Shown here in pieces: positions 27,236 through 41,386 of a stretch of DNA of 58,970 bases. How positions within the stretch are numbered: the first letter of the stretch is position 1; each line of letters starts with the position of its first letter. Source of the DNA: Deltaproteobacteria bacterium (GTDB lineage: Bacteria > Bdellovibrionota > JACOXK01); NCBI GenBank assembly GCA_016186995.1, contig JACPKQ010000007.1, positions 116,226-175,195 on the forward strand, read 5' to 3'. The notes beneath the pieces were generated by a model that had not been told where the DNA came from, searched no databases, and saw only the letters and a list, made by a program, of their open reading frames with translations. The translations under genes were made by a program, and so were the position numbers.

Positions 27236-27267
27236 TTTTCCCTTAATTATTCCCCTTTTTTACTCTT

Positions 27268-29058: not shown

Positions 29059-29156
29059 ACTTAGGTTCTTGATGACCTAGAGGTCTTTCAGTGCCCCTCC
29101 GCCCGGTGTGGATCCTCCCTGAAAAACCTCTAGGTCATCTTCACATAGACTCGAAT
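29059..29156. repeat. Family D composite palindrome, copy 1
   Basis: Starts ACTTAGGTTCTTGA (29,059-29,072), has perfect 14-bp arms GATGACCTAGAGGT (29,071-29,084) and ACCTCTAGGTCATC (29,126-29,139), and ends with CACATAGACTCGAAT. Copy 2 at 39,860 has the same left end and nearly the same right end but different inner arms. Confidence 0.65.
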
Positions 29157-29240
29157 GTAAATTCTCTCATGGATACGTCAGATCCTCCCCTTCAAAACAT
29201 ACTAGGTAACTTTATGTGTCTCATAACGAAAATAGGTTAA

Positions 29241-29391
29241 AGAGATAGGGATAGTACTTACAGAGGGTCGTGTCGGAAGGTAATCTGGCTTGGTCCGCAT
29301 GAATATGCGGCAGATTACCTGAGACGCGAGGCGCACTTTTTCGCAGGAAAAAAGTGACGCCGTACCCGAGGAAAGTACTATCCCTATCTCT
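29241..29391 (+). repeat. TIR-flanked 151-bp structured element, copy 1
   Basis: A perfect 19-bp terminal inverted repeat: AGAGATAGGGATAGTACTT (29,241-29,259) and its complement (29,373-29,391). Inside are a hairpin AGGTAATCTG/CAGATTACCT (29,278-29,287 with 29,311-29,320) topped by CCGCAT/ATGCGG, and a second stem CACTTTTTTC/GAAAAAAGTG. No target-site duplication is obvious. It could be a MITE-like element or a structured RNA. A second, longer copy is at 40,561-40,784. Confidence 0.8.
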
Positions 29392-29494: not shown

Positions 29495-29677
29495 ATGGCA
29501 GTTCCAAAATATAAAACTTCAAAGAGTCGCCGCAACAAAAGAAGAACACACCAAAAATTGAAAAAAGCTCATTTTGACTCTTGTCCTAAATGTCATGAGG
29601 CTTGTCTACGCCATCATATATGCGCTTCATGTGGATATTATAAAGGTACTGAAGTTCTTTCCGTAGAAGAAATCTAA
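29495..29677 (+). CDS. rpmF: Ribosomal protein L32
   Basis: A 60-residue bL32 with the N-terminal MAVPKYKTSKSRRNKRRTH signature and a CxxC...CxxC zinc ribbon (CPKC and CASC). A GAGGAG site precedes the ATG. It is immediately followed by fabD: the stop and next start are adjacent. In many bacteria rpmF leads plsX-fabH-fabD; here plsX and fabH are missing from the cluster. Confidence 0.95.
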   Translation: MAVPKYKTSKSRRNKRRTHQKLKKAHFDSCPKCHEACLRHHICASCGYYKGTEVLSVEEI

Positions 29678-39859: not shown

Positions 39860-40063
39860 ACTTAGGTTCTTGAAATGGCAGTGTCTTTCGCTTCATGGCT
39901 CGCTGTAGTTGTTCCACGCGGACTTTCTGTCATCCCTGGGTTCAGGTCCCCGCCTGCGCGGGGATAAACTCCGGCAGGGATCCAGTATTCTATTTTTTAT
40001 GAATTTTGGGCTGCGCTTTACTTCCGCTTCAGACACTGACCATTTCCTCACATAAACTCGAGT
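39860..40063. repeat. Family D composite palindrome, copy 2
   Basis: Starts with the same ACTTAGGTTCTTGA as copy 1 and ends CACATAAACTCGAGT. Inner arms GAAATGGCAGTGTCT (39,872-39,886) and AGACACTGACCATTTC (40,031-40,046) pair with one bulge. A family A repeat sits near its centre (39,929-39,985). Confidence 0.6.
39929..39985. repeat. Family A repeat nested in family D
   Basis: GTCATCCCTGGG to CGGCAGGGATCCAG, 57 bp, with an inner GTCCCCGC/GCGGGGAT stem. It interrupts the spacer of the family D palindrome, which suggests insertion of one repeat into another. Confidence 0.75.
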
Positions 40064-40501: not shown

Positions 40502-40855
40502 AGCGCGCTTTTTATCACAGTTTTAAATTTGAATCAATTTCTAGAATGACACTTTATTTAAGAGATAGGGATAGTTCTTATCGAGGGTCGTGTCGGAAGG
40601 TAATCTGGCTTGGTCTGCATAGTATATGCAGCAGATTACCTGTAGAGGCGAGGTCCAGGCTTTTATGAATCATTTTTTAGTTTCACAAAAATGATTCATA
40701 AAAAAGATAATTCCCGGAGTTAAGCTGTTCTTTTCTAATAAAAAAAGTGATGCCGTGCCCGAGGGAAGTACTATTCCTATCTCTGTAATGAAGAACCAAG
40801 GTTGTCATTCAATGAGGGATTGCTTTCTTTTCGCGTGATTGTTACATGTGAAAGA
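40502..40855. other. Gap upstream of the ffh operon
   Basis: About 354 bp holding the second copy of the TIR-flanked element (40,561-40,784). The remaining bases show no gene. A promoter for the ffh operon should lie here, but no strong -35/-10 pair was picked out by eye. Confidence 0.5.
40561..40784 (+). repeat. TIR-flanked structured element, copy 2 (224 bp)
   Basis: Ends AGAGATAGGGATAGTTCTT and AAGTACTATTCCTATCTCT (2 mismatches to a perfect 19-bp inverted repeat). The first 60 nt match copy 1 at about 56 positions. The central hairpin region has about 70 extra bases containing its own palindrome TGAATCATTTTT/AAAAATGATTCA. Same orientation relative to downstream genes as copy 1. Confidence 0.8.
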
Positions 40856-41386
40856 GTGGAAATAAAAATCACCTCAGAGCCTATTGATCAAATCAAAGCA
40901 GGCGCTCTTGTTTCTGACATTTACGCAAGAGACTTTCCTTTGAAAGGTCACCTAGGCATGCTCGATTGGAGATTGTATGGTTTCTTTTCTCATCTTTTAG
41001 AAGATGCAAAACTGACTGGAAGGCTCAGAGAAACGTATCTTATTCCATCGCAAAACAAAACACGCACTCAATATTTTTTATTGGCAGGTTTAGGAAGTAA
41101 AACAAGACTTACAGAAAAAAAAGTAAGCTCTGTTGTGCCTCATGTTTTAAAAACTTTACGGCGAATGAAAGTACAAGAGTTTGTTCTTGTACCCTTGGGA
41201 TGGCAAGTGCTTGGGTTTAATCGTGCTTTCAAACTTTTTATGCAAGAGCTTCATAAAAATGAACCTTTGTTTCCTTCTTTTTTCTTTAAAAAAATGATTG
41301 TTTACATTCCACCAGAGGCCAAAAAATCTCGAACCCACGTTTCAAAAATGCTTCCCTTCATTCAAAAGAGAATGTCCCATGTTTGA
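40856..41386 (+). CDS. Stand-alone M17 peptidase N-terminal-like domain protein
   Basis: A 176-residue protein from GTG 40,856. It resembles the N-terminal macro-like domain of leucyl aminopeptidases (MEIKITSEPIDQIKAGALVSDIY, DFPLKGHLGMLDWRL, YFLLAGLGSK, KVQEFVLVPLG). The catalytic C-terminal domain is absent, so it should have no peptidase activity. In full enzymes this domain helps hexamerise or bind DNA. The start is uncertain (upstream GTG 40,835 or TTG 40,802). It overlaps ffh by 8 nt. Confidence 0.62.
   Translation: MEIKITSEPIDQIKAGALVSDIYARDFPLKGHLGMLDWRLYGFFSHLLEDAKLTGRLRETYLIPSQNKTRTQYFLLAGLGSKTRLTEKKVSSVVPHVLKTLRRMKVQEFVLVPLGWQVLGFNRAFKLFMQELHKNEPLFPSFFFKKMIVYIPPEAKKSRTHVSKMLPFIQKRMSHV

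Follow-up and report, generated by a model that had tools for sequence, protein, structure and literature searches.

A palindromic sequence family with a conserved three-way-junction core and variable paired stems in bacterial genomes

Introduction

The stretch of DNA analysed here (58,970 nucleotides in full, hereafter the window) holds two strongly folding palindromic sequences ahead of genes, and the question is whether they are copies of a mobile element, a structured RNA or a signal belonging to the adjacent genes. A first-pass annotation described a new 151-bp element with inverted terminal repeats and a longer second copy, and named MITE-like mobility, a processed RNA and an attenuator as possibilities.

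Several classes of repeats invite comparison. According to the accessible part of PMC3733652, REP and BIME sequences (GTAG, CGTC) are intergenic palindromic repeats present in many copies, often after genes, with a patchy distribution across phyla. Bacterial MITEs and other small repeats are described, in the available sections of PMC2229807, as short, non-autonomous sequences with terminal inverted repeats and strong folds. Repetitive and double hairpin elements in mitochondria of sponges and fungi, as presented in the available portion of PMC2800124, are mobile intergenic mtDNA hairpins with composite or duplicated motifs, in which stems are conserved and changes fall in loops.

Results

Two copies in the window

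The features of the two copies are as follows.

29241..29391, + strand: copy 1, an E-type member of the wider core family (SF1)
29241..29259, + strand: outer stem, 5' arm (19-bp terminal inverted repeat)
29373..29391, + strand: outer stem, 3' arm
29268..29329, + strand: second junction arm (helices 3-5 of the alignment), comprising a lower stem (29268-29274/29323-29329), a GGA/GA internal loop, a stem with the 7-nt bulge GCTTGGT, and an apical hairpin
29330..29361, + strand: third junction arm, helix 6, a hairpin with the conserved loop CGCAGG and a bulged A
40561..40784, + strand: copy 2, 224 nt, with the core of copy 1 and closely similar ends
40660..40703, + strand: 44-nt hairpin nested within copy 2

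Copy 1 proved to have the perfect 19-bp inverted repeats and the inner hairpins first attributed to it, with positions 29240 and 29392 forming a 20th pair; the end sequence of this element type in the genome is AGAGATAGGGATAGTACTT. Perfect 19-bp inverted repeats spaced by 20-300 nt were found nowhere else in the window, and none appeared in 20 first-order Markov shuffles of it. Folded as RNA, the 151-mer reaches -82.8 kcal/mol (z -9.8, equalled by none of 200 shuffles) and forms a long stem leading into two additional arms, while the corresponding values for copy 2 are -81.0 and z -6.7. The second copy was found at the annotated position and length, differing from the first at 4 of the first 60 bases (56/60 shared, as had been counted; 92% identity over 64 nt), and it carries a longer nested hairpin segment in place of the CGCAGG hairpin.

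The start of rpmF lies at 29495, which agrees with the annotated distance of 104 bp past copy 1. For copy 2, the 72 bp assigned to the interval before ffh fit an in-frame GTG at 40856, but the gene is a different one: this GTG belongs to an open reading frame that starts at 40802 (TTG), matches Peptidase_M17_N, and precedes ffh (SRP54).

Copies and covariation in the genome of origin

A search for further copies, proposed together with the annotation, was productive. The genome that contains the window (G000; 1.68 Mb in 30 contigs, a draft 93% complete) gave 38 BLAST matches of the element and holds about 25 copies, 21 of which are full-length and were aligned (alignment A1). This alignment omits long, tandem and truncated copies, and also L011, which runs into a contig end and is possibly the same copy as L002. 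The end sequence matches the genome 57 times, compared to 3 times for its reversed control. Pairwise identity among the 21 copies ranges from 83.6 to 98.7%, with a median of 93.4%. Four contigs of the draft (C13, C20, C25, and C27) end in or beside element copies, so the copy number may be underestimated.

Pairing is kept in 99.2% of the alignment cells and falls to 39-50% when partners are slid by 1-3 columns. The compensatory changes that the annotation had suggested looking for were found at 11 of 58 base pairs, which changed on both sides; the shuffle mean is 3.8, and none of 500 shuffles gave a value as high.

Flanks of the copies differ from each other and hold other palindromic repeats, and simple segmental duplication is therefore excluded as the origin of the copies. 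Inspection by eye of the flanks of the approximately 25 copies disclosed no constant direct repeat, and many of these flanks are repeats themselves. The 44-nt hairpin nested in copy 2 was located in the CGCAGG hairpin of four E-type copies and also in the other arm of two elements of a different type, M4. Novelty of the element is upheld by the presence of about 25 copies in unrelated flanks and by the lack of an Rfam family for it.

The same core on unrelated stems

Relatives outside the genome of origin were recognised by structure; a BLAST search with an E-type copy through 58 relatives returned no match. Covariance model R1 matched four of 368 genomes of the phylum, the genome of origin and three others of its class, and a deeper search of the class extended this to seven of eight genomes, the genome of origin included. 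The more diverse model R2 matched all eight class genomes and gave one marginal match in other genomes of the phylum. Per-genome counts in the R2 search and in the R1 search of the 368 genomes are lower bounds, with 8-9 candidates scored per genome. Within 259 kb of the genome of origin R2 identified 13 places, both window copies among them, and R1 also recognises palindromes M4, M5, M6, and M7 of this genome, which lie beside the element or replace it.

Members of the family share a three-way-junction core of about 110 nt with two branches and conserved unpaired motifs, set on a basal stem of about 20 bp. The conserved parts are mostly unpaired. They include an internal loop of GGA/GA type beneath the second arm and a bulge rich in purines, which reads GCGGGCAYGG or, in both the E type and class genome G004, GGCTTGGTC. 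The motif CYGAG is also among them, as is the loop CGCNGG, whose hairpin has a bulged A close to its foot; the CGCAGG-type loop is conserved across phyla.

Outer stems in the class genomes are unrelated in sequence yet paired. As an illustration, G004 contains three copies with near-identical cores and three unrelated perfect stems. Terminal inverted repeats are common to the E-type copies of the genome of origin and not to the wider family. In the loci obtained with the pattern described below, stem statistics refer to 71 of 80 loci, or to the 64 with an alignment score of at least 20. The outer stem usually terminates around position 28, counted from the boundary used (quartiles 26-33), and in the 71 loci the median is 22 Watson-Crick pairs. 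The outer-stem alignment score is 35, compared to a control median of 14 (n = 65, control maximum 29). One copy in a class genome (L083, G002 C1:94684-94801) seems, by eye, to lie inside a TonB-like reading frame.

Distribution

The core pattern GAGCGGGCAYGGN{5,35}GAGCGAGNCYGAG was found in at least 112 stretches of a public genome collection. The E type does not match this pattern, which therefore samples one subtype of the family. R2 confirms 78 of the 80 pattern loci examined (of at least 112); as 30 of the 80 were used to build the model, independent confirmations amount to 48 of the 50 others. The two loci without a model match (L154 and L166) were read as chance matches in coding DNA and dropped.

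Among the matches listed, pattern loci come from 47 assemblies. By title they belong to Patescibacteria (Nealsonbacteria, Uhrbacteria, Jorgensenbacteria, Portnoybacteria, Magasanikbacteria, Azambacteria, Berkelbacteria, and others), and also to Omnitrophota, WOR-3, Bipolaricaulota, Saganbacteria, Actinomycetota, and "Deltaproteobacteria", the last including class genomes G003, G005, G006, and G007. In one Patescibacteria contig five model matches (L176/L169) occur within 8 kb, beside trmD-, rpsP-, and tRNA-Tyr-like genes (names assigned by eye).

An exact E-type pattern had no match in the genome collection or in the viral collection, and the core pattern was not found in the viral contigs searched. 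Comparisons of an E-type copy with plasmids, and of one Patescibacteria copy with phages and plasmids, gave no match. Rfam returned nothing in the window at the gathering score and nothing for the element at E <= 10; at ten loci searched at E <= 5 no match fell on the element, apart from a short sub-threshold similarity to the sR14 snoRNA in L183, which lies on the opposite strand and 3.7 kb off. Our literature searches turned up no description of this element.

Gain, loss and exchange at orthologous sites

Presence and absence of copies could be followed in three class genomes assigned to one genus (g6; G005, G006, and G007), each of which has several copies. One copy of G005 is absent from G006 and G007, where a short spacer separates the same two genes and the arms are missing too. 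Another copy, beside the start of a lipoprotein gene in G007, is absent from G005 and G006. There the native start of the gene corresponds to one arm and, in inverted form, to the other, which makes the stem look derived from the target. The opposite is seen for a G005 copy compared with a second contig of G005, where neither arm is present in the empty site; for the L099/G005 empty site, divergence is too high to place the joint. A rule that the stem is always copied from the target was considered and abandoned, as it is suggested by one empty site, that of the G007 copy, and contradicted by others, and the evidence on stem origin conflicts, pointing to the target in one case and to arrival with the element in others.

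Elements also change in place. The orientation of the element at one locus in G006 is opposite to that in G005 and G007. At another locus the core described here occupies the site in G005, and an unrelated core rich in GC takes its place in G006 and G007, on paired stems of their own. Two Patescibacteria strains, WY2.bin70 and FK_Sedi_B_Bin.358, are 92-97% identical and share the elements and their sites; at two of these loci an apical hairpin in one strain corresponds to a nested element of about 150 nt in the other, and at a third locus this family in one strain corresponds to a different palindrome in the other. Such swaps of modules between close strains suggest a turnover fast enough for sequencing to catch.

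Upkeep of pairing and strand asymmetry

Between orthologous copies, outer arms show 4, 8, and 10 double changes that preserve pairing in three comparisons, and the orthologous pair with the GC-rich core shows 4. The orthologous core is 93% identical, compared to 81-86% in its flanks.

Mispairs in the outer stem of the pattern loci are unequally distributed. Read on the plus strand of the core in 64 of these loci, and with both kinds scored equally, G-T mispairs number 60 and A-C mispairs 25; counted by assembly, the ratio is 20 vs 3 (p 0.0005). The asymmetry is not seen in 17 loci of the class (G-T 13, A-C 17), and mispairs of both sorts are nearly lacking from the CGCAGG hairpin. The G-T excess has the same sign in all four classes of flanking genes. 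As this sign is independent of the direction of flanking genes, read-through mRNA does not seem to be the molecule under selection, and we dropped the argument that G-U pairs point to an mRNA strand, because the excess follows the strand of the core and not that of the gene.

Flanking genes were counted with a simple open-frame finder and not from curated annotation. Among pattern loci with co-directional neighbours (orientation counted for 73 of 80 loci), both genes run antisense to the core more commonly (-,-; 29 loci) than along it (+,+; 11 loci). A minus-strand stop codon adjoins the right arm in 29 of 71 loci, and the stop of a plus-strand gene adjoins the left arm in 11 of 71. The orientation bias of 29 vs 11 is not predicted by pure selfish mobility.

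Discussion

The number of copies, their gain and loss, the inverted and nested cases, and the patchy distribution are best accommodated if the sequences described here are non-autonomous, horizontally scattered mobile palindromes, recognised as folded single strands, a reading to which we give somewhat better than even chances. The core would be recognised in single-stranded form, as ssDNA or as an RNA copy, by an enzyme acting in trans, and insertion would take place in intergenic DNA and at hairpin tips. The stem may move together with its element, which is what happened to the 19-bp ends in the genome of origin; alternatively, it might be rebuilt from target sequence, its complementarity then being maintained by selection or by template-switch correction. 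The mobility proposed in the first-pass annotation is in this way retained, on account of the approximately 25 copies and of presence and absence at orthologous sites, while a classical MITE moved by a transposase that recognises terminal repeats fits poorly, since these repeats show the least conservation within the wider family. A conserved interior between ends that vary but pair turns the plan of a classical MITE around, and demands another mechanism of recognition.

More tentatively, and as a proposal which we find doubtful but quite conceivable, the family may represent a new kind of genetic element, in which cores are recognised as single strands, stems are complementary but unconserved, insertion and swapping occur at hairpin tips, and an enzyme has spread the cores over many phyla. 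The 19-bp repeat would then be made, or re-made, from local sequence and would be no transposase site. No transposase, recombinase or reverse transcriptase could be tied to the element. If it is mobile, its enzyme is at work in Patescibacteria, Omnitrophota, and further uncultured groups.

The main rival to mobility is a possible function as RNA, raised by core conservation and maintained pairing. The sequences would then form a new class of structured RNA, trans-acting or local, with several paralogues whose stems drift under a pairing constraint while the core is selected; we judge this rather unlikely, though a serious candidate. Unpaired motifs conserved across phyla, double changes in place, the higher identity of the core than of its flanks, and tolerance of G-T on one strand are all consistent with it. 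Copy number and position nevertheless vary between congeners and between strains, cores are inverted or replaced at orthologous sites, two element types hold one 44-nt hairpin in different arms, co-directional loci mostly run antisense to genes, and Rfam has no match. If the sequences are RNAs after all, they make a new class with a function still to be found. An RNA element restricted to the 3' end of mRNAs, a terminator or stabiliser following stop codons, is much less probable. The excess of minus-strand stops at the right arm over plus-strand stops at the left (29 vs 11 of 71) and the 29:11 ratio of co-directional loci agree with such a role, but 12 of the 21 full copies in the genome of origin lie between divergent genes, no terminator-like site was found in either window region, and G-T tolerance does not depend on the strand that is transcribed. 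The attenuator suggested in the first-pass annotation is not supported, given the first two of these observations.

That a DDE-type transposase of an unseen IS recognises the ends, as in a classical MITE, would account for the perfect 19-bp ends and the high identity of the copies in the genome of origin; we regard it as improbable, because it is the ends that vary within the family (G004 has near-identical cores on unrelated perfect ends) and because no constant target duplication was seen by eye around the approximately 25 copies. As to a transposase with matching ends, which the annotation proposed looking for, the lone ends viewed lead into other palindromes, and none was seen there on inspection. 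Mobilisation of a REP or BIME element by a RAYT (tyrosine transposase) appears the least probable of all, even though many-copy intergenic palindromes lying partly downstream of genes recall REPs as portrayed in the accessible part of PMC3733652. The Y1_Tnp domain (PF01797) occurs in four of the eight class genomes and was found neither in G005 nor in G000, the host with most copies, for which a RAYT partner was accordingly rejected (93%-complete draft). REPs are single hairpins of 20-40 bp with an unpaired GTAG or CGTC tag, GTAG types having a RAYT partner, whereas the element has a three-way-junction core of about 110 nt on a stem of about 20 bp and variable sequence.

Returning to the mobile palindrome favoured above, it can be likened to Correia/NEMIS, ERIC, RUP, YPAL, and Rickettsia palindromic elements in being short, non-autonomous and strongly folding. 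Termini in these elements are common to their copies. In the family described here each copy has termini of its own, the conserved part is the interior, and fixed sites can exchange one core for another. Compared with the mitochondrial hairpins, the family has stems that vary with compensation, unpaired core motifs that are conserved, and a location in bacterial chromosomes of many phyla. Whatever its nature, this is a widespread structured sequence family outside Rfam 15, and models R1 and R2 are available for annotating it.

Other repeats around the element

Further repeats accompany the element in the window. A different palindrome at 29071-29139 has a GGGGAGGATCCACACCGGGCGGAGGGG-like core on a paired stem (SF3); related cores are present elsewhere in the genome of origin and at the G006 and G007 site orthologous to one that holds SF1 in G005. 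A remnant of a third palindrome family (SF2, core GCGGAAGTAAAGCG..GCGAGCCATGAAGC) was observed at about 39860-40060, and SF2 palindromes adjoin many copies of the element in the genome of origin. In addition, a short repeat, TCCTCTCCCTTGATGGGAGAGGA, and its variants are located at window positions 27267, 37051, 38314, and 38800.
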